The notes below the pieces were generated by a model. That model was not told the origin of the DNA, made no database searches, and saw only the letters and a program-made list of their open reading frames with translations. A program made the position numbers and the translations under genes. DNA of 64,000 nucleotides, from positions 2,852,001 to 2,916,000 of the forward strand of contig NC_016041.1 of NCBI RefSeq assembly GCF_000226565.1, given 5' to 3'. The DNA comes from Glaciecola nitratireducens FR1064 (GTDB lineage: Bacteria; Pseudomonadota; Gammaproteobacteria; Enterobacterales; Alteromonadaceae). Below, piece after piece: positions 8,177 through 18,542 of this stretch (position 1 is the first letter of the stretch; every line of letters begins with the position of its first letter).

Positions 8177-9175
8177 TTAGTTTGGAAAATAGATATAGCT
8201 CACCGCGATGTAGGCAAAATATCCGAGCAACAAAAGGCCACCTTCAACTCGGCTGAGCTTGCGGCCACTGAGTAGGAAGATATACAGTAAAATAGATGAG
8301 CCTAGCATGACCCATTGGTCAAAGGTTATGACTCTTCCTGCAACAGCAATAGGCTGTAAAATTGCAGACACACCAAGTATGCCCAATAGATTAAAAATGT
8401 TGCTACCAAGAATATTGCCAATCGCTACATCTGCATGTTTGCGAAAGGCTGCGATAACTGAAATTGTCAGTTCAGGTAAGGAGGTTCCCACCGCCACTAA
8501 TGTTAGTCCAATCACAGCCTCTGACACACCCAATCCAATGGCAATACCAACAGCGCCTTTGAGTAAAATCTGGGAGCCTGCTATCAGCAGTGCTAAACCG
8601 CCTATCGTTTCAGCAACAGTCCAAATAATCGCTTTAGGTTTTACGGCTATCTGAGTTATCTCATCCTCAGTTACCTCATCCTCAGTTATCTCATCCTCAA
8701 GCACGTGAGCCAAAGGCATGTTTGCTTTTTTCTCAGTACGATAAGCCCAAATCAAATAGCCAACGAGCGCACTTAATAGAATAGTGGCGTCAATCCAGCT
8801 TAGGCTGCCGTCAAGCACAATTAACATAAATAGACAGCTTGAAGCCATTACCGCCACAGCATCACGGCGAAGTGACAATGCTGAAATAAAAAGCGGCGTA
8901 ATAGCAGCACAGAGTCCTAAAACTAATAGAATATTCGCAATATTACTGCCAACAACGTTGCCAATAGCAATATCAGGCTGCCCGCTTAACGCTGCACCAA
9001 CCGACACGACAAGTTCTGGCATTGAAGTGCCAAAACCAACAATCACGAGTCCGGTAAGTAGCGGTGATATACCCGCTCGCATAGAAATACCAAGCGCGCC
9101 TCGAATTAGGAAGTTGCCACCAACAGTAAGCAGTCCAACTCCCAAAATGAGATAGAAAACATCTAGCATAAGCAC
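8177..9175 (-). CDS. CaCA-family Na+/Ca2+ antiporter (YrbG-like)
   Basis: A 332-residue inner-membrane exchanger made of two inverted halves. Each carries an alpha-repeat: VGFGTSMPELVVSVGAALSG...IAIGNVVGSNIANI in the first, and VAVGTSLPELTISVIAAFRK...VAIGNILGSNIFNLL in the second. The two halves are joined by an acidic cytosolic loop, EDEITEDEVTEDEITQ, which is encoded by a 15-bp tandem DNA repeat and could bind Ca2+ or simply be disordered. It probably moves calcium or sodium outward. A second ATG two codons in (9169) is also possible as start. Confidence 0.92.
   Translation of the reverse strand: MLMLDVFYLILGVGLLTVGGNFLIRGALGISMRAGISPLLTGLVIVGFGTSMPELVVSVGAALSGQPDIAIGNVVGSNIANILLVLGLCAAITPLFISALSLRRDAVAVMASSCLFMLIVLDGSLSWIDATILLSALVGYLIWAYRTEKKANMPLAHVLEDEITEDEVTEDEITQIAVKPKAIIWTVAETIGGLALLIAGSQILLKGAVGIAIGLGVSEAVIGLTLVAVGTSLPELTISVIAAFRKHADVAIGNILGSNIFNLLGILGVSAILQPIAVAGRVITFDQWVMLGSSILLYIFLLSGRKLSRVEGGLLLLGYFAYIAVSYIYFPN
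8656..8700 (-). repeat. 15-bp tandem repeat inside the CaCA antiporter gene
   Basis: Three consecutive 15-bp units (TTATCTCATCCTCAG with one-base changes) at 8656, 8671 and 8686 encode the acidic five-residue repeat E-D-E-(I/V)-T in the central loop. The unit is a multiple of three, so copy number can change without breaking the frame. Confidence 0.85.
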
Positions 9176-9332: not shown

Positions 9333-10271
9333 CTATGCTACACAAAAAATGAATTTATTCGATATTGCTTTGCTTAACCACGCTACGAGGTCAATATTAT
9401 GCTTACCAATGCTGTCGATAATCTCGTCGACAGAGGCTTGCTCAACTAATTGCTGCATGACATCAGACTCAGCTTCTGACAAATATTCAAACTGCGCTTT
9501 GTATTCTGGGCGCCACAGAATAAGAGACCTTGGTGATGCGTTATTTATTGCACTGCTTATGGATATCTTTATTTCTGTTAACAATGTTTGTCGAGCTAAC
9601 GCACCTTGTGCTGACTGCAAAGATGGGTCATGTATAAGACGATACAAATCGCTTACTGGGAACCAAAATTTGAGCACCTGCAAACCAGGTGCGGGTAAAA
9701 AGCGAAGTAAACTCGTATCTCCACTTTCGAGAAGAGCAAAGCTTGCTGCCGCGAATGTTTTGTCTGGTTCACGCTGCGCTTTGTGTATTGCCCAATCAAG
9801 CTCTGCAACTTCACTTAAAAATGGGTATTCCTCCAGCGCCTCTTGATCTGCAATAAACACCGGTAAACTGCTGCCATATTCAGCCCAATCAAAGCTAGTT
9901 TTTGTTTCGTACTTTAGAAAGCGCCGCGACAGCATTCTAAAGCTGTCCTCACCTATAAAACCTTCAACGGTCGGAAAAGTGATGCTTAATGCGCGAATGC
10001 CGTTTTCGATGAAGTTGTTGGTGTATACATTGAGCGCCGTTTCAGTAGCCGTCTTGATTGGAGAATTAGAGGCTTTTGCTGTCATGATGTTTTGTGGTTT
10101 TGGCTTATCTGCATCTACTGGGTTGTCTTCCACATTCCGTGAAGGCTCAACTTGAAAGATTTTCGCAACCAACTGCCGCTGGTACTCTTGATTCGCGCTT
10201 TCTCCTATCGCACTATTTATGCTCGCACTATTTACATTCGCACTATCTCGATTTGAATTATCTTGGTTCAT
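9333..10271 (-). CDS. bufC: BufC/HvfC-like partner protein (DUF2063 family)
   Basis: A 312-residue protein. The N-terminal DNA-binding-like DUF2063 domain is recognisable from the pattern YTNNFIENGIRALSITFPTVEGFIGEDSFRMLSRRFL (about 95-130), and from QEALEEYPFLSEVAELDWA further on. It is the partner of the DUF692 enzyme encoded upstream; the two genes overlap by ATGA (10268-10271), so they are translationally coupled. In bufferin and related MbnB/MbnC systems this partner delivers the precursor peptide to the iron enzyme. The first 70 residues are a low-complexity Asn/Ser-rich extension encoded partly by a 15-bp repeat, longer than usual for the family. Confidence 0.85.
   Translation of the reverse strand: MNQDNSNRDSANVNSASINSAIGESANQEYQRQLVAKIFQVEPSRNVEDNPVDADKPKPQNIMTAKASNSPIKTATETALNVYTNNFIENGIRALSITFPTVEGFIGEDSFRMLSRRFLKYETKTSFDWAEYGSSLPVFIADQEALEEYPFLSEVAELDWAIHKAQREPDKTFAAASFALLESGDTSLLRFLPAPGLQVLKFWFPVSDLYRLIHDPSLQSAQGALARQTLLTEIKISISSAINNASPRSLILWRPEYKAQFEYLSEAESDVMQQLVEQASVDEIIDSIGKHNIDLVAWLSKAISNKFIFCVA
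10209..10253 (-). repeat. 15-bp tandem repeat in the 5' part of bufC
   Basis: Three copies of a 15-bp unit beginning CGCACTAT lie at 10209, 10224 and 10239 and differ in the last bases. They encode the Ser/Ala/Asn-rich stretch near the start of BufC. The repeat is in frame and so length-tolerant. Confidence 0.8.
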
Positions 10272-11236
10272 CGCGTAATGGCCTGAGCTATCGCCCTAGC
10301 TTTGCTAGCTTCATTTAGCAATACCGACCATTCGGGAATGGCAGTGTCCCACTCAACTAGGGTTGGCGTTCCCGGAAATTTTTGCAGCGCATATTCGTAT
10401 AGTTGCCAACATTGCTCAGAAACTGCCGCGCCATGATCATCAATAATAAACTGAGCTTGGCTACTGGCCTCATTAGCGCTTGCTGACAGTTGCTGCTGGT
10501 CGGTGAAGCCTGCTACATGGATTTCACCCACAATATGAGGCGGTAATGCATGCAATCGCTCCTGAATAACATCAAGGGGATTCGCCGTTTTTCTATTCAG
10601 TTCGTTAATAATAAGGTTGTTCAAATCGAGCAATAAACCGCACCCTGCCGATCCACACATACTCACTAAAAACTCAAACTCCGTCATATCGTCTTTGCTA
10701 TGCGCTAATAGCTGGTTTGGCGTGATATAAGCAGATAAATTTTCAATCAATAAAGGGCGTTGAATACTTTCTTGTACTTGCTGAATATGCGCAACGATAG
10801 TGCGCAGTGAATCGCCATTATAGGGAATAGGAAGCAAGTCACCGCTATGCAATACGGTGCCGTTAATATCAGCGCGGTTAAAGCATAAATGCTCTGATAC
10901 CAGCATGGGTTGTGTGCTTTTTACTAACTTGGTGAATTGCTGCAAAATAGTCTCAGGGACCGGTACCGTAGAGCCTAATCCTAAAGACGTACCGTGTACG
11001 CTCAGTGGATAGGCCTGCGCAATTTCATGAATTAGCGCATGCGTTGCACCGCCTGCAGCAAAAAAATTTTCGGCATGCACTTCGACAAAATCGATGGTTT
11101 GGGTGCCGTCTTCCTCGTACTGTGAGTTTCCGGCTCTCTCAGGTGCTCCTTTAGGCGCCAAAGCTTCTGAATAGTGAGAATGACGAAGCCCAACGCCAAT
11201 AAGGCTGCTGGGCTTTGTTTTTCGACTGCTATTCAT
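10268..11236 (-). CDS. bufB: BufB: DUF692 multinuclear iron RiPP-modifying enzyme
   Basis: A 322-residue TIM-barrel enzyme of the DUF692 (MbnB/TglH/BufB) family. It shows GVGLRHSHY at residue 14 on, VEVHAENFF, HGTSLGLGS, SEHLCF, IENLSAYI, LLLDLNNLI, EIHVAGF, DDHGAAV and VEWDTAIPEW. The His, Glu and Asp residues in these blocks are the iron ligands of the family. In bufferin systems the enzyme converts cysteines of the precursor to thiooxazole (oxazole-thiol) groups that bind copper. Here the precursor gene bufA1 is just upstream (52 bases) and the partner bufC overlaps downstream, so the assignment is strong from sequence and context together. Confidence 0.92.
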   Translation of the reverse strand: MNSSRKTKPSSLIGVGLRHSHYSEALAPKGAPERAGNSQYEEDGTQTIDFVEVHAENFFAAGGATHALIHEIAQAYPLSVHGTSLGLGSTVPVPETILQQFTKLVKSTQPMLVSEHLCFNRADINGTVLHSGDLLPIPYNGDSLRTIVAHIQQVQESIQRPLLIENLSAYITPNQLLAHSKDDMTEFEFLVSMCGSAGCGLLLDLNNLIINELNRKTANPLDVIQERLHALPPHIVGEIHVAGFTDQQQLSASANEASSQAQFIIDDHGAAVSEQCWQLYEYALQKFPGTPTLVEWDTAIPEWSVLLNEASKARAIAQAITR

Positions 11237-11288
11237 ACATATGTGTCATACGCTGAATGCTTGAGTAAATATGTAAATTTCGTATCTA

Positions 11289-11588
11289 CTAGCTGTTTTT
11301 CTTTGCTTGCATTGCTTTAAACATCTCTTTGGCTTCTTTACGATCAAAACCGCCGAGTTCTTTGCACGTGCCGCCTGGTACGAGACGCCATTCACCAATA
11401 TCGTTATCAGTGCTTGCTTGGCCCGCACAGCTGTGCGTGCCAGCTAAGTTTGCGCAGTCATTTTGACCCGCTGCGGAAACGCCGTAGCATTTCTCTTTCT
11501 TTTGCTTGTCTGCGGCTTCTGCAATATCGATTACGCCCGAAGTCATAATAGTGGCTAGTGCTGCGGCGACGGCTAAATTAGTTTTCAT
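11289..11588 (-). CDS. bufA1: BufA1: bufferin-type copper metallophore precursor (DUF2282)
   Basis: A 99-residue precursor with a Sec signal peptide (about 1-26, ending AEAA) and four cysteines: C34 (KCYGV), C45 (NDCAN), C54 (HSCAGQ) and C75 (GTCKEL). This spacing, with GVxxAGxNDC, HSCAGQ and PGGTC, is the DUF2282 signature. The family is a ribosomally made peptide whose cysteines are modified by BufB/BufC; the product sequesters copper in the periplasm. The start has a GAGG ribosome site. It is first in the minus-strand operon, preceded by a palindrome-rich leader. Confidence 0.93.
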
Positions 11589-11696: not shown

Positions 11697-11846
11697 CCTT
11701 GGTAAAATTAAGTCAAACCTCTTTATAACCAATGCCCCTGCAGTTAATAACGTTGAACGTGAAAATACAATGATAAAAAATATTGATGAAGATCAAGGAG
11801 CGTTGAAAACAAGGATTTAAGATACTTTTTTATCGGGGGAGTGCAA

Positions 11847-12582
11847 ATGACGAAAACTTCATCAATGCTATGGTTAATTGTTCCTAGTACTTTGCTGACA
11901 GGTCTAATTTTATCACTGTTATTACACTTTGATTTGCAGATCCCACTGCTTAACTTTGTCAATCGCTTACAAAATCTGGGCCTATGGGCTCCTATTATTT
12001 TTATTTTCCTAGACATGCTGTTCGTCGTGTTTTTGTTACCTAGCGTTCTCTTGACTCTCAGTGCTGGTTTTCTATTTGGCACATTGATGGGTTCCATAAT
12101 CATTATGGTAGCAACGACGTTTGGCGCAGCAATCGCTTTTCTCATTTCGCGACATTTATTTAAGCAGTCAGTGAAAGACTATTTGCATAGCCACAAGAAA
12201 ATGAAAGTAATCAATGAGGAATTTGTCATGGTTGGATGGAAAGTGGTGTTATTAACCCGATTGGTTCCCTTCTTTCCGCTGAAACTCTCAAATTATCTAT
12301 TCGGAGCAGCCCGTTTTTTCTTTTTCAGATTTTATCATTGGTACGTTTATTGGAATTATTCCGAATACGGTTTTTATTGTTTATGCGGGCTCGCTTGCTA
12401 ACGATATTTATATGTTGATTGGCGGCGATTTAGTGGCGACCAATGAAATATTGTTGTTCTATGCACTCGCACTATTATTTTTACTTGTTGCTGTGATTTA
12501 TATCAGTCGGCTTTCTCAGAAAGCACTGACTCGTTATGAATCTCGCCAACATAATCTCAAGGGTAAAGATGATGTCGTTTAG
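11847..12582 (+). pseudogene. TVP38/TMEM64 family membrane protein, frameshifted at a T-run
   Basis: The N-terminal part reads as a DedA-superfamily TVP38 protein: helix 1 near 8-27, then LPSVLLTLSAGFLFGTLMGSIIIM, FGAAIAFLISRHLF and LLTRLVPFFPLKLSNYLFGAARF. After the run of six T at 12314-12319 the frame turns to nonsense and stops at 12401. Dropping one T restores RFSFSDFIIGTFIGIIPNTVFIVYAG followed by two more hydrophobic stretches, ending at TAG 12580-12582. The start is ATG 11847 after GGGGGA; a GTG at 11841 is also in frame. The intact end overlaps the next gene's start, so the gene was functional recently or the base is an assembly error. The family helps move or handle membrane lipids. 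Confidence 0.82.
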
Positions 12583-14833
12583 GTGGGTACCTTGGAAAAT
12601 ATTGGTCAAGTATGCTGCTAGACGGCATGGTTTTTTAGATCCGATTAACCTATTAAGTCAATTACAACGCTTTATTCAACCGTCTGAATTCAATGAACCT
12701 GTTGAACTCCTCCGAGCCGGTGCGCTCATGCACGCACGCGGCTTAATCAATAACAGAGTAATACAGCATAACTTAGATTGGGTATGGCCGTTTTGGATTG
12801 AGCGACAATTTGACCCCCGAGATATTTCCTTCATCCCGAGGGCTTTTTCAATAACACATATTAATCTCAGCCATCGCAATTGGACTGCGGTGGGTCTTCC
12901 AGACTACTCAGATTTACCTATCGTTGACCCTCGTGGTTTAATCACTCCGTTTATTGATGGATGGTCTGTAGATGTTTGGTTAGTAACCTCTACCAACAAA
13001 GCTTTGCTACCATCAAAAGAGAAACATGCTGAACAAAAATTAAGTTTGAATAATGAGCTCAAGATCATAACAAAAGTGCAAAATTCGCAAGGTTTTCTTA
13101 AAAGTCAGGTGAGTGTTCAACTAATCAAAAGTAAACCGACGTGTATCATAAACGTCGATGCCAGCTACGATGAACCCGCGTATATAGTCATTGCTCTTCG
13201 TCCATATAATCCTGAGGGTGTGAGTTTTATCGATTCTGCTAAGTTAAATGAACAGCGGAATCAATGGTTAATCGATAATAATAAAATTGTGGAGTTCAGC
13301 CGCACTGTCGATAGCCATCACTTTTCCGACTTCCAGCACGGAGATGTATTATTGCAATTAGGAAAAGCTGAGCAGTTGGAAGGCGAATGTAGGGTTGGTA
13401 TGTTGACAGCGGCAGCCATGTTTACGCTAGACGCGCACACGGGTATGGGTCAGGTATCCGTCCATATTCCTCTTATTCAGCAAAATAGTAAAACCGATAT
13501 TCAGAGCAAGCCTTGGTCGCAACACTTAAAAACCGCCGCGGTCCTGAAAATACCAGATAAGACATTCCAGTCATTGTATGATGTCGCGCTTCGAACTCTG
13601 CTATTGCATTCATCTAAGGATATTTATCCTGGTCCTTATACGTATAAACGTTTTTGGTTTCGAGATGCGGTTTTTGTTCTTCAAGCCCTGCTCTGCACTG
13701 GCTTAATTAAAAGAGCAGAACAAGCGCTTGACCAATTTTCATCCAGACAAGACTGGTCAGGCTATTTTCATTCGCAAGAAGGTGAGTGGGATTCAAATGG
13801 ACAAGTACTTTGGATCTTACAGCGCTACTGCCAGTTAACGGGACAAGCACCAAAAACCAAGTGGCTGACAATGATAAAACGTGGCGCAGATTGGATAATC
13901 AATAAACGCCTTCCCAGCATAGGCGATGCCCACGACGGACTGCTGCCTGCAGGATTTAGCGCTGAACACCTTGGCCCAAATAATTACTATTACTGGGATA
14001 ACTTTTGGGGTATCGCAGGTTTACTGGCTGCAAAGACACTATTTAATCTGGCTGGAGACACCAAACTCAGCGGAAAATATCAACGTGCTGCCAAAGAATT
14101 CCAACATTGCGTTGATCTTAATATAAACAAAGCAGGGAAAAACCTCGCAACTCGCGCAATACCTGCCGCACCGAATCGCAGAATGGACGCTGGTGCAATC
14201 GGATCTTTAGCAATGGCTTATCCTGCTCAATTGTGTAGTGAAAAAGATGAACGCATTCTGCACACAGTTGAGTTTCTACTTAACAAATGTTGTGTAGACA
14301 ATGGTTTCTTTCAGGATATGACGCACTCAGGCATTAATGCCTATCTAACCTTGCACATTGCCCAGGTATTGATGAGAGCTGGAGACACTCGATACCAGCA
14401 ACTAATACAAAGAATTGCCGAGCTCGCTAGCCCTACAGGACAATGGCCTGAAGCAATTCATCCGCAAACAGGAGGCGGCTGTATGGGTGATGGCCAGCAT
14501 GTTTGGGCTGCGGCTGATTGGATCATGATCATGCGAAATACATTTGTACGAGAAGAGCATGATCGACTAGTACTTGGGGCGGGAATAAGTGAGCAGTGGC
14601 TAATCAGCCAACAAACCCTAAAGTTTGGTCCAGCTCCTACCTCCTTTGGTGATGTAACAGTGACAATTGAACCAGTTTCCCTGCCTTCTGAGAATGTGCA
14701 ATTGCGACACAAGATTAGTTGGCAAAGTAAATGGCACTCTAGCGCGCCGACCATCGAGGTGCGCCTTCCTGGGCAGAAAGTCCTGCACCCTAAAACTGAT
14801 GAAAATCACGTGTTTTTTGAGATGCCGCGATGA
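12569..14833 (+). CDS. Six-hairpin glycosidase-like protein (glucoamylase/debranching fold)
   Basis: A protein of about 750 residues. An N-terminal beta-rich region (about 1-340) precedes an (alpha/alpha)6 barrel, seen as KRFWFRDAVFVLQALLCTGL, GEWDSNGQVLWILQRYCQ, NNYYYWDNFWGIAGLLAA, PAAPNRRMDAGAIGSLAMAYP and GGCMGDGQHVWAAADW. These Trp/Asp/Glu-rich helices match amylo-alpha-1,6-glucosidase, trehalase and GH15-like enzymes. There is no signal peptide, so it is cytosolic. I chose ATG 12569 (or 12572) because AAGGG lies 5-8 bases upstream; the ATG at 12536 has no good site. It overlaps TVP38 upstream and shares ATGA with the glycosyltransferase downstream. The true substrate is unknown. Confidence 0.8.
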   Translation: MMSFRWVPWKILVKYAARRHGFLDPINLLSQLQRFIQPSEFNEPVELLRAGALMHARGLINNRVIQHNLDWVWPFWIERQFDPRDISFIPRAFSITHINLSHRNWTAVGLPDYSDLPIVDPRGLITPFIDGWSVDVWLVTSTNKALLPSKEKHAEQKLSLNNELKIITKVQNSQGFLKSQVSVQLIKSKPTCIINVDASYDEPAYIVIALRPYNPEGVSFIDSAKLNEQRNQWLIDNNKIVEFSRTVDSHHFSDFQHGDVLLQLGKAEQLEGECRVGMLTAAAMFTLDAHTGMGQVSVHIPLIQQNSKTDIQSKPWSQHLKTAAVLKIPDKTFQSLYDVALRTLLLHSSKDIYPGPYTYKRFWFRDAVFVLQALLCTGLIKRAEQALDQFSSRQDWSGYFHSQEGEWDSNGQVLWILQRYCQLTGQAPKTKWLTMIKRGADWIINKRLPSIGDAHDGLLPAGFSAEHLGPNNYYYWDNFWGIAGLLAAKTLFNLAGDTKLSGKYQRAAKEFQHCVDLNINKAGKNLATRAIPAAPNRRMDAGAIGSLAMAYPAQLCSEKDERILHTVEFLLNKCCVDNGFFQDMTHSGINAYLTLHIAQVLMRAGDTRYQQLIQRIAELASPTGQWPEAIHPQTGGGCMGDGQHVWAAADWIMIMRNTFVREEHDRLVLGAGISEQWLISQQTLKFGPAPTSFGDVTVTIEPVSLPSENVQLRHKISWQSKWHSSAPTIEVRLPGQKVLHPKTDENHVFFEMPR

Positions 14834-16107
14834 ATATCTTGATGATGACTAATACTTATTTACCTCACATTGGCGGCGTTGCTCGATCAGTTGACGCATT
14901 TAGCCGTTACTATCGCAATCAGGGTCATAAGGTGTTGATTATTGCTCCGGAATTTCCACAAACGCCTGAGAATGAGGATAATGTGATCCGCATTCCAGCT
15001 ATTCAACATTTCAATGGCAGTGATTTTTCTGTTGTGTTACCCGTTCCTCATTTTTTAGGTAATGCGATAGAAAAATTCGAACCTGATATTGTTCATTCTC
15101 ATCATCCCTTTTTAATCGGGTCAACAGCAAGATTAGTCGCCAACACTTATCAATTACCCTTAGTTTTCACGCACCATACTATGTATGAACAATACTCACA
15201 CTATGTGCCAGGCGATTCCAAAACACTAAAGCGCTTTGTTATTAAACTAGCAACGAGCTATGCCAATATGTGTGATTATGTGTTTGCCCCAAGTGAAAGC
15301 ATTGCAAAAATATTAGTCCAACGAGAAGTAAGAACCCCCATTGATGTGATCCCCACGGGAGTTGATTTAGCGGAAGCTGAGCAAGGAGATGGCGCTGGCT
15401 TCCGAGCCATCGCTGGAATTCCAAAAGATGCTTTTGTGGTGGGTCATTTAGGGCGCCTAGCGCCTGAAAAAAACCTCGATTATTTGTGTCATTCAGTAGT
15501 GAAATTTATACAAAAGGAAACTTCTGCACACTTTCTTATAGTAGGTAAAGGGCCCTCAGAATCAGCAATACTGCAAATATTTATGCAAGCTGGTTTGAGC
15601 AAGCGTTTGCATAAAATTGGTTTTCTTCAACAGCCCTTTACATCAAGCGCATTCAAAGCGATGGATGTTTTTGTATTTAGTTCTCAAAGTGAAACCCAAG
15701 GCATGGTGTTGAGTGAGTCAATGGCCGCTGGAGTTCCTGTGATTGCCCTCGATGCACCAGGTGTAAGAGAGTTGGTAGAGGATAATAAGAACGGCAGGCT
15801 GTTGCCAGCATCCGCCAGTAGCCAGGAGTTTTCCGAGGCATTGCACGAGTTTATTAACTTACCCAAGTCTACACGCAGAGACCTGAGCCGATCCGCGCGA
15901 CAAACAGCAGAAAATTACTCACTTGATTTAAGTGCACAAAAAGCATTGAACATTTACCATCAATTGCTGGGCAAGCAATACGTCCATCGCCGCTTTGAAC
16001 ATCAGACTTGGACTGAAATAACATCGTTAATAAAAGCGGAATTCGAGATTTTAAGTGGCTTCCTAAAGGCTGCAGTGCAAGCTCTGAAACAAGATAATAA
16101 GCAATGA
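14830..16107 (+). CDS. GT4 glycosyltransferase, diacylglycerol glucosyltransferase-like
   Basis: A 425-residue GT-B enzyme. The N-terminal domain begins NILMMTNTYLPHIGGVARSV and carries DIVHSHHPFLIGSTA and HHTMYEQYSHYVPG; the C-terminal donor domain has GHLGRLAPEKNLDYL and the EX7E motif SETQGMVLSESMAAGVP. The HTMYE.Y.HY segment is what I know from bacterial 1,2-diacylglycerol 3-glucosyltransferases of the GT4 family, so a lipid acceptor is plausible. It is coupled by ATGA overlaps to the genes on both sides (14830-14833 and 16104-16107). Alternative: a mannosyl- or other glycosyltransferase acting on a polyprenyl or sugar-alcohol acceptor. Confidence 0.87.
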   Translation: MNILMMTNTYLPHIGGVARSVDAFSRYYRNQGHKVLIIAPEFPQTPENEDNVIRIPAIQHFNGSDFSVVLPVPHFLGNAIEKFEPDIVHSHHPFLIGSTARLVANTYQLPLVFTHHTMYEQYSHYVPGDSKTLKRFVIKLATSYANMCDYVFAPSESIAKILVQREVRTPIDVIPTGVDLAEAEQGDGAGFRAIAGIPKDAFVVGHLGRLAPEKNLDYLCHSVVKFIQKETSAHFLIVGKGPSESAILQIFMQAGLSKRLHKIGFLQQPFTSSAFKAMDVFVFSSQSETQGMVLSESMAAGVPVIALDAPGVRELVEDNKNGRLLPASASSQEFSEALHEFINLPKSTRRDLSRSARQTAENYSLDLSAQKALNIYHQLLGKQYVHRRFEHQTWTEITSLIKAEFEILSGFLKAAVQALKQDNKQ

Positions 16108-18542
16108 TCTATCAAATTGAATTATGGTTTCGCAAATTGCACGGTTGGTTTAATCGCAGCGAATGGTTGATATGTCTGCTTGGGCTCAAGCCAGTGGGCC
16201 CATCAAAGGTAAAAACGGGCCTGATCATGATCCAGATAGACGGCCTATCTTACTCTCAGCTAAAGTCAGCGTTAAGCAAAAAGCGTATGCCGTTTCTGCA
16301 AAAACTGATGAATAAAGAGCATTATCAACTAGAGGTATTATTCTCAGGTGCACCATCTACCACCCCTGCCGTGCAGGCCGAACTTTTCTATGGCGTCAAA
16401 ACAGCGGTTCCAGCGTTTAGTTTTAAATCTCAAACTTCCGACAAAGTGGTTCAGATGAACCAATATCAGGCCTCTGTTGACGTAGAAAAGCAACTAAAAG
16501 AACAAGCTGAACCGCTTCTTAAAGGGGGCAGCTCCTATTCTAATATCTACCGTGGGGGCGCTAAAGAAGCTAATTTTTGTGCATCTTCAATAGGCTGGTC
16601 TCAACTAATGAAAATGACGCCAGTATGGAAGATGATTATTTTTATTGTGTTAAATCTATATAGTTTTCTCAGAGTAACCGTGCTGATTGTTGTGGAGTTT
16701 TTACTGGCGTTTGTTGATTTCTTTCGCGGCATCATCGCGCGGAAAAACCTAATGAGAGAATTAAAATTTGTCCCTACCAGAGTCGTTATTAGTATTCTTT
16801 TGCGAGAATTAGTGACGATCGGCGCCAAGCTAGACATAGCGAGGGGATTACCCATTATTCACTTAAACCTACTCGGTTACGATGAGCAGGCGCATCGCCG
16901 TGGCCCCGGTTCAGCCTTCGCCCATTGGAGTTTAAAAGGCATCGATGATGCTATCGGTCGTATTTGGCGGGCCGCAAAATCTTCGTCCCAAAAAGACTAT
17001 GAAATTTGGATTTATTCAGATCATGGGCAAGAGGAAACGCAACCATATGAAAGACTATATGGTGAAACGGTGAGTCAGGCAATTAATCGCGTATTTTCCA
17101 ATTTTGAGCAGCCGCTAACAAGTGACACCGTTATTACTCACATACAGGGCACTGAGTCGCATAGAGCAAGATATCTAGGAGGTAAATGGATGCAAAAATT
17201 AACGCCGTTTAACAATGTTGCATTTTCAACGCTTCCCTCCTCAGAAAAATCAGTTATCGTTACCGCAACAGGACCCTTAGGATCAATCTATCTGGCGCAT
17301 CCTTTGAGCCGGAAACAGACAGAAAAACTCGCAATGGCCTTAGTGCGCGATGCCAAAATTCCTCTCATCTTTATTTGCAACAAGGAGAATGTCAGGGGCG
17401 CTGAATTAACAATTAAGGCGTTCACTAAAAATGCGGAATATGATTTGCCAAAAGATAGAACCAAAATTTTTGGTAAAAATCACCCTTTCTTGGAAGAGAT
17501 AACTGAGGATATTATGCGTTTATGTCAGCATGCTGAATCCGGCGAATTGCTGATCAGCGGCTTCAGCCCAGATAAACCTTATTGTACATTTGCAATGGAA
17601 AATGGCTCACATGGGGGCCCAGGTCCAGAGGAAACACGCGCATTTGCTTTGCTACCCTATGACACTCCAATGCCGGTTAAGCAAAAGGCATATTTAAGGC
17701 CAGCTGATTTATATGAGATTGGTTTACACACATTAGGTCGAAACATAAAACCTTTCGCTGAAAATAGTCAGCTCAAGCCGCTTAGTTCACAAAAACGTCC
17801 AAAACAAACCTCACTCAGGATCCTCACCTATAATGTCCATAGCTGTTTTTGCATGGACGGTAAACTTGCTCCGAAAAGCATTGCGAAAGTGATCGCGCAT
17901 TACAAACCGGATATTGTGGCTTTGCAAGAGCTAGATGTTGGGCGCCCCAGAACCCAGCATGCCGACCAAGCCCATATCATTAGTAAATATTTGCAGATGG
18001 AATATCATTTTCATCCGGTTATCCATGTTGAAGAAGAACAATATGGCAATGCTATTCTTACGCATCTTCCGATCAAACTTATTAAAGCAGGCAATCTACC
18101 ATTAATCGCTAAAAAGCCATGGTTTGAACCAAGGGGCGCAATTTGGGTGTCAGTAGCACTAAACGACTACAATATACAAATTTTTAATACACATTTTGGC
18201 TTTCGAAAAATCGAACAGCTTCCTCAGGTCAAGGCGCTATTGGGCAAAGACTGGCTAGCGGGGGTTGATCCGAATGATCCTATTATTGTGTGCGGCGATT
18301 TCAATTTTTCGCATCGTTCAGCTGCCTACAGTCTCATCACTAAACAATTCCAAGACCTTCAAGTAGAGCTAAAAGGACACCGCCCTTTAAAAACATTTCC
18401 GAGTAGACTTCCTTGTACTCGTATTGATCATGTGTTTTCTAACTTATTTTTCAAAACAGTTGATGTGAAGGTTCCTCGCACCTATCTCACTCGCAATGCC
18501 TCCGACCACTTACCGTTAATTATTGATGTGCAATTGCCGTAA
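16104..18542 (+). CDS. Alkaline-phosphatase-superfamily phosphodiesterase fused to EEP-fold phosphatase
   Basis: An 812-residue two-enzyme fusion. Residues about 38-550 form a type I phosphodiesterase/nucleotide pyrophosphatase domain with metal and nucleophile positions D46 (IQIDG), T86/T87 (STTPA), D260 and H264 (GYDEQAH), D306-H307 (SDHG) and H503 (SHGGPG). A hydrophobic double stretch at about 176-208 is inserted and probably anchors it to the membrane. Residues 571-812 are an endonuclease/exonuclease/phosphatase domain: TYNVHS, ALQELD, GNAILTHLP, NTHFG, CGDFNF and a terminal ASDHLPL. Both domains cleave phosphate esters; sphingomyelinase-like and inositol-phosphatase-like enzymes share the EEP fold. 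It is the last gene of the operon. Confidence 0.87.
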   Translation: MIYQIELWFRKLHGWFNRSEWLICLLGLKPVGPSKVKTGLIMIQIDGLSYSQLKSALSKKRMPFLQKLMNKEHYQLEVLFSGAPSTTPAVQAELFYGVKTAVPAFSFKSQTSDKVVQMNQYQASVDVEKQLKEQAEPLLKGGSSYSNIYRGGAKEANFCASSIGWSQLMKMTPVWKMIIFIVLNLYSFLRVTVLIVVEFLLAFVDFFRGIIARKNLMRELKFVPTRVVISILLRELVTIGAKLDIARGLPIIHLNLLGYDEQAHRRGPGSAFAHWSLKGIDDAIGRIWRAAKSSSQKDYEIWIYSDHGQEETQPYERLYGETVSQAINRVFSNFEQPLTSDTVITHIQGTESHRARYLGGKWMQKLTPFNNVAFSTLPSSEKSVIVTATGPLGSIYLAHPLSRKQTEKLAMALVRDAKIPLIFICNKENVRGAELTIKAFTKNAEYDLPKDRTKIFGKNHPFLEEITEDIMRLCQHAESGELLISGFSPDKPYCTFAMENGSHGGPGPEETRAFALLPYDTPMPVKQKAYLRPADLYEIGLHTLGRNIKPFAENSQLKPLSSQKRPKQTSLRILTYNVHSCFCMDGKLAPKSIAKVIAHYKPDIVALQELDVGRPRTQHADQAHIISKYLQMEYHFHPVIHVEEEQYGNAILTHLPIKLIKAGNLPLIAKKPWFEPRGAIWVSVALNDYNIQIFNTHFGFRKIEQLPQVKALLGKDWLAGVDPNDPIIVCGDFNFSHRSAAYSLITKQFQDLQVELKGHRPLKTFPSRLPCTRIDHVFSNLFFKTVDVKVPRTYLTRNASDHLPLIIDVQLP

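Follow-up and report, generated by a model that had tools for sequence, protein, structure and literature searches.

What do four adjoining genes do together on the forward strand of Glaciecola nitratireducens FR1064, when no pathway comes readily to hand that needs a DedA-type membrane protein, a glycosidase, a glycosyltransferase and a phosphodiesterase? The genes lie in a 64,000-nucleotide stretch of DNA that was analysed as a whole (the window). They are referred to below as TVP38, GHx, GT4 and PDE-EEP, and together as the cassette (Table 1).

Table 1. Features of the cassette and its upstream border (positions within the window)
Feature	Position	Strand	Remarks
YHS-domain lipoprotein gene, relic of the 5' end	11725..11764	-	82-85% identity over 33-40 bp to L173/L174/L175
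TVP38/VTT, 5' part of a frameshifted gene	11847..12401	+	184 aa to the stop at 12399-12401; PF09335, 63 bits
T6 homopolymer run, site of the frame shift	12312..12319	+	Frame continuous in homologues
TVP38, 3' third, in another frame	12319..12582	+	Ends at TAG 12580-12582; aligns with the C-terminus of homologues
GHx, orphan GH15-like (alpha/alpha)6 glycosidase, 765 aa	12536..14833	+	Likely true start 12569
GT4 glycosyltransferase, 425 aa	14830..16107	+	Nearest to alpha-monoglucosyl-DAG synthase
PDE-EEP, alkaline-phosphatase-superfamily phosphodiesterase fused to EEP, 812 aa	16104..18542	+	PF01663 + PF03372

GHx, GT4 and PDE-EEP are intact reading frames, and the list of open reading frames confirms the two ATGA overlaps, GHx/GT4 and GT4/PDE-EEP, that had been claimed in the initial annotation and that join all three genes. 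The wider statement that all four genes overlap and are made together holds for these last three, which are coupled, but is weakened for the first, whose overlap with GHx exists only across a frameshift. Assignment of the first gene to the DedA superfamily agrees with the VTT domain found by Pfam, although the gene is not one reading frame, and Pfam also matched both the phosphodiesterase and the EEP domain expected in the fourth. No intrinsic terminator was found downstream of the operon. Its GC content (42.8%, against 43.1% for the window) is not distinctive, and foreign composition was therefore rejected as a sign of origin. Most GHx homologues begin at the residue matching M12 (MxWLKWLPWR), so that the real start of GHx is probably at 12569, where an ATGATG follows closely on AAGGGT.

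TVP38 has a GGGGGAG ribosome site before its ATG at 11847, and the frame from this ATG ends at the stop listed in Table 1. The second frame reads SFSDFIIGTFIGIIPNTVFIVYAGSLAND..., carries the conserved GTFxGIIPxT..VYxGSLA end that appears in an alignment with twelve intact TVP38 homologues, and over this 3' third is 52% identical to the protein of L055, an uncultured Glaciecola that is the nearest relative (66% identity in GHx). A single base is changed in the T6 run (near 12313-12318), within the sequence CGTTTTTTC, and this breaks the frame. Taken literally, the spacing in this genome is a gap of 134 nt between the TVP38 stop and the GHx ATG at 12536. In L055 the intact TVP38 overlaps GHx by 47 nt, and the distance from TAG 12582 to ATG 12536 is the same 47 nt; the start of the second gene inside the first, as originally described, is thus found only across a frameshift that had been missed. 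The VTT domain expected of COG0398 TVP38/DedA members is truncated by the frameshift here and complete in the relatives. A programmed frameshift was rejected because the TVP38 frame is unbroken in relatives. That the change is a sequencing error, with an operon fully intact in the living strain, is about as probable as that it is real, and is compatible with every functional reading considered below. It involves a single base in a T6 run, the remainder of the gene is open and conserved, and comparison of about nine neighbouring genes with those of congeners revealed no break of this kind. Against this, the assembly consists of one 4.13-Mb contig with a completeness rating of 100%, genuine frameshifts in homopolymers are frequent and the cassette was recently acquired. 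Unless the extra T is an error, TVP38 is probably non-functional in this strain, and the cassette may therefore work with another of the VTT proteins of the genome, in which five further VTT matches were found, four of them over the cut-off.

Scanning about 85,000 species genomes with GHx yielded 507 relatives, of which the 80 best-scoring were kept, so that the co-occurrence rates among them hold for the closer relatives. Outside Marinobacter, within these best 80 of 507, GT4 adjoins GHx in all 66 of 66 loci, PDE stands beside the GHx-GT4 pair in 49 of 55 with EEP following in 47 of 55, TVP38 is present in 50 of 61, and the full four-gene set occurs in 39 of the 52 loci with enough flanking sequence. 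An independent class-wide sample contained a strong full-length GHx in 16 of 369 genomes, this one included, and among the 15 neighbourhoods fetched GT4 was adjacent in 15, TVP38 present in 10 and all four genes in 8. The four families are therefore found together elsewhere in both samples, and the objection set out beforehand, that they might not be, does not apply. Gene order is constant and GH/GT4 ATGA overlaps are present in most loci; a Nitrospinaceae locus (L064) has PDE-EEP upstream. PDE-EEP is wholly absent from some genomes (L055, L104, L125 and L134) and is accordingly not obligatory. Carriers include Gammaproteobacteria, Desulfobulbaceae/Desulfobacteraceae, Nitrospinota, Methylobacter, Rheinheimera and others; they are often marine, many come from freshwater or sediment, and some are methanotrophic. 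No other neighbour is common across genera; further neighbours recur solely among members of one genus or of closely related genera. The operon is a real conserved unit, beyond chance, with GHx and GT4 as its core and TVP38 and PDE-EEP as common partners. Text searches found no paper describing it.

Full-length PDE-EEP was not found in 12 congeners, a second search did not find GHx in the congeners that it listed, and 11 of the 247 genomes within the host family carry GHx. Four congeners have no cassette between bufA and kynureninase but a YHS-domain lipoprotein gene in its place; this gene is intact upstream of bufA in L173, L174 and L176, and a 40-bp relic of it remains here beside the cassette. 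Because congeners lack the cassette, the site is unoccupied in four of them and the relic is kept, these sequence comparisons indicate a recent acquisition, in this lineage and adjacent to a deletion. For GHx, GT4 and TVP38 alike the closest relative is L055, followed by L056, and for PDE-EEP it is L056, an agreement consistent with movement of the cassette as a unit. Other origins and roles were considered and rejected: spread by plasmid (none was found to carry the greater part of PDE-EEP), phage origin (PHROG gave just one weak match, for EEP) and anti-phage defence (no PADLOC match).

GHx matches no family in Pfam, NCBIfam, PADLOC or PHROG, and none of 47 GHx members matches any glycosidase model in a test of GH15 sequence-family membership by Pfam. 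Its sequence profile aligns with the PDB only weakly, to dextran dextrinase (E 0.054), so a search by fold was needed. The AlphaFold model (pLDDT 82, with the N-terminal 110 residues poor) has the beta-sandwich and (alpha/alpha)6 barrel of the GH15 fold; its top Foldseek matches are glucodextranase 1ug9 (E 1e-16) and glucoamylase 1lf6 (E 1e-15), followed at lower rank by GH94 phosphorylases, a rhamnosidase and GH63-type enzymes. In dextran dextrinase, a GH15 member, Trp540-Arg542-Asp543 contact the sugar at subsite -1, Arg542 and Asp543 binding O4 and O6 (PMC12446779). The invariant W374-R376-D377 of GHx align with these residues in the same weak profile alignment, and the W-x-R-D motif would fit a glucosyl substrate. 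GH15 enzymes have two catalytic Glu, in regions S3 and S5; the base region of GHx contains invariant Glu639, in WPEAIHP, by its position the likely base. GHx shares with glucoamylase, glucodextranase and dextran dextrinase the fold and the subsite -1 motif, and has this glutamate in the base region, but differs in its identity of about 11%, its lack of a Pfam match and its acid position, where the general acid Glu671 of dextran dextrinase aligns, weakly, with invariant Asp488. With Asp rather than Glu at this position, the substrate and even the chemistry could differ from those of GH15.

The HTMYE motif ascribed to GT4 is present, as THHTMYE, and alignment of homologues shows GGV, HHT(M/L)YE, RLAPEKN and E-x7-E to be invariant. 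Placement was judged by NCBIfam scores. Among 18,950 models the best is that of alpha-monoglucosyl-DAG synthase (NF049988; 167 bits, next 107), to which GT4 aligns over its full length and which matches all 36 of the 36 GT4 members of the cassette; the score is, however, well below the curated cut-off of 400 bits, outside the membership threshold. The second-best model is N-acetylglucosaminyl-phosphatidylglycerol synthase. The genome contains three further NF049988 matches, at 78, 31 and 24 bits. NF049988 also matches GT4s weakly in 14 of 14 control genomes, which counts against an identity as alpha-monoglucosyl-DAG synthase.

PDE-EEP was modelled with a pLDDT of 84. Its PDE residues D46, T87, D260, H264, D306, H307 and H503, the metal and nucleophile residues expected for PF01663 within the alkaline phosphatase superfamily, and its EEP residues N577, E609, H697, D732, N734, D801 and H802, the catalytic N, E, H, D-x-N and D-H of the EEP superfamily, are invariant in 43 sequences. 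Both domain types, EEP and PF01663, also act on many non-lipid phosphoesters, which counts against a lipid reading. A strongly hydrophobic hairpin at about residues 177-212 occurs in nearly all 43 homologues, and the charges flanking it suggest that both domains are cytosolic. The EEP domain shares 49% identity with rhizobial EEP proteins encoded beside phospholipase D and UPF0104/lysyl-PG-synthase-like genes, a trio with the arrangement of E. coli ybhP-clsB-ybhN, an operon also named in PMC9241728; identity to E. coli YbhP itself is only 23%. The cassette resembles this cardiolipin synthase B operon in encoding an EEP with lipid-handling membrane proteins, but ybhP-clsB-ybhN is without a GT4 or a glycosidase, and the EEP of the cassette is fused to a PF01663 phosphodiesterase. 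In Sedimenticola PDE is not joined to an EEP domain; a more distant EEP is encoded on its own immediately upstream of TVP38 (L107, 8419-9093; L115, 8204-8878). This split arrangement suggests that the EEP function is needed together with PDE.

DedA proteins of COG0398 are putative phospholipid flippases, and the DedA family also includes C55-P flippases (PMC10127716). By alignment of homologues, the first re-entrant motif of TVP38 is without acidic residues; this absence and the VTT domain are shared with COG0398 TVP38/TMEM64 proteins, from which the TVP38 of the cassette differs in being linked to GHx and, in this genome, broken.

The initial annotation had proposed turnover or remodelling of a phosphoglycolipid or glycolipid. 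A lipid or glycolipid role stands as the best reading because the families co-occur, GT4 favours the monoglucosyl-DAG synthase model and the kin of EEP adjoin phospholipase D, but diacylglycerol as acceptor is unsupported at 167 of the 400 bits required, and the proposal gives the glycosidase no role. We tentatively regard the cassette, with a confidence that falls a little short of even, as a mobile conserved module that acts in the metabolism of membrane glycolipids on the cytosolic side. Membrane-anchored PDE-EEP would take the phosphorylated head group off a phospholipid to give diacylglycerol, one domain perhaps cutting the diester and the other removing the remaining phosphate. GT4 would add a hexose, probably alpha-glucose, to the diacylglycerol, and GHx would strip alpha-glucosyl residues from the lipid or the released head group, thereby controlling chain length or allowing reuse. 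TVP38, as a scramblase, would equilibrate the product between leaflets. We infer all of these substrates, together with the direction in which the cycle runs and the membrane side.

The closest known system is PlcP-Agt/GTcp of SAR11, the Roseobacter group and others, in which a phosphoesterase and a GT4 lipid glycosyltransferase are encoded in one operon (PMC4796936, PMC8231724). The cassette is alike in encoding a phosphoesterase with a lipid-type GT4 (49 of 55 loci) and in the proposed route from phospholipid through diacylglycerol to glycolipid. It is unlike in that PDE-EEP consists of PF01663 and PF03372 and is not a PlcP metallophosphoesterase, and in that a GH15-like glycosidase and TVP38 are added and the PHO box is missing. 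With PlcP and PHO boxes absent, the cassette is not a member of PlcP-Agt. The best model is a PlcP-Agt-like phospholipid-to-glycolipid route with unrelated phosphoesterases, supplemented by a glucosidase and a lipid scramblase.

Marinobacter supplies a further, independent pairing of a phosphoesterase with a GT4, which was counted in favour of this model. The 14 Marinobacter loci among the best 80 contain TVP38-GHx alone. Ten Marinobacter genomes with this pair are without the operon GT4 and PDE-EEP, and their best GT4 is unlinked and encoded in a single long reading frame of 751-876 codons. Its architecture was examined in one genome, L148 (1465-3699, minus strand), where one fusion protein combines a metallophosphoesterase domain with a hydrophobic segment and a GT4 resembling MGS (201 bits). 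Such a fusion was found in 0 of 12 genomes with the operon GT4 and is also absent from this genome. The pattern is consistent with Marinobacter having swapped one phosphoesterase-GT4 pair for another, but it comes from essentially one clade and is not statistically independent, which was weighed against the model. The L148 fusion is possibly a one-piece analogue of PlcP-Agt.

The cassette might instead serve the assembly of a lipid-anchored or carrier-linked glycan. GT4 would start or extend a glycan on polyprenyl phosphate or a phospholipid, PDE-EEP would add or remove a phosphodiester decoration or recycle carrier phosphate, GHx would edit the glycan and TVP38 would flip the carrier. GT4s of this superfamily often use undecaprenyl-linked sugars. 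The runner-up among the GT4 models and the C55-P flippases among DedA-family proteins (PMC10127716) point the same way. This assembly role is nevertheless unlikely, as no polymerase, ligase, flippase or other glycan gene is kept beside the cassette across genera and TVP38 is without the acidic residues of the C55-P-flippase subfamily. A strict form of phosphate-limitation remodelling, in which the cassette is an alternative PlcP-Agt turned on by phosphate starvation, would share the published one-operon layout of phosphoesterase and GT4 (PMC4796936, PMC8231724). The absence of a PHO box upstream, already remarked in the initial annotation, is upheld by a search of the window that stayed at chance level and by 65 regions upstream of homologous operons, none clearly enriched; the phosphoesterase families are unrelated to PlcP, and a glycosidase has no role in PlcP-Agt, all of which makes starvation control quite improbable. 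A soluble alpha-glucoside cycle for a compatible solute or storage oligosaccharide, with GT4 making and GHx degrading the glucoside and the phosphoesterase acting on a phosphorylated intermediate, would suit the resemblance of GHx to soluble GH15/GH94 enzymes (glucosylglycerol phosphorylase at lower Foldseek rank) and the often marine carriers, but is very improbable, as two of the four parts are membrane-bound (the PDE hairpin in nearly all 43 homologues and the lipid-type TVP38) and many carriers are from freshwater or sediment.

Membrane glycolipid metabolism thus remains the preferred reading. GHx and GT4 could work against each other on a single glycolipid, an arrangement that would be unusual. 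A bolder form of the proposal, which we hold to be possible but doubtful, is an undescribed mobile glycolipid cycle in which GHx and GT4 oppose each other on one lipid, PDE-EEP feeds it as a phospholipase and a scramblase is coupled to it, with GHx founding a new glycoside hydrolase family that acts on membrane glycolipids. If the cassette does make and trim glycolipids, it would be an overlooked lipid pathway in many marine, sediment and methanotrophic bacteria. Its phospholipases would be unrelated to PlcP, and surveys counting only PlcP and Agt would miss its carriers. The cassette is widespread (507 GHx relatives in about 85,000 species), and its most conserved member is without a Pfam family. 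It also provides a genomic partner set for a protein of the TVP38/COG0398 type.

Some flanking genes on the minus strand may be described in their own right. For a calcium/sodium-antiporter-like gene (8177-9175), no counterpart was found at the equivalent position of four congeners. A bufABC-like operon (9333-11588), located at this site also in congeners, encodes a small exported peptide containing Cys (11292-11588), an MNIO enzyme of the MbnB/TglH/ChrH family (10268-11236) and a DUF2063 partner (9333-10271).
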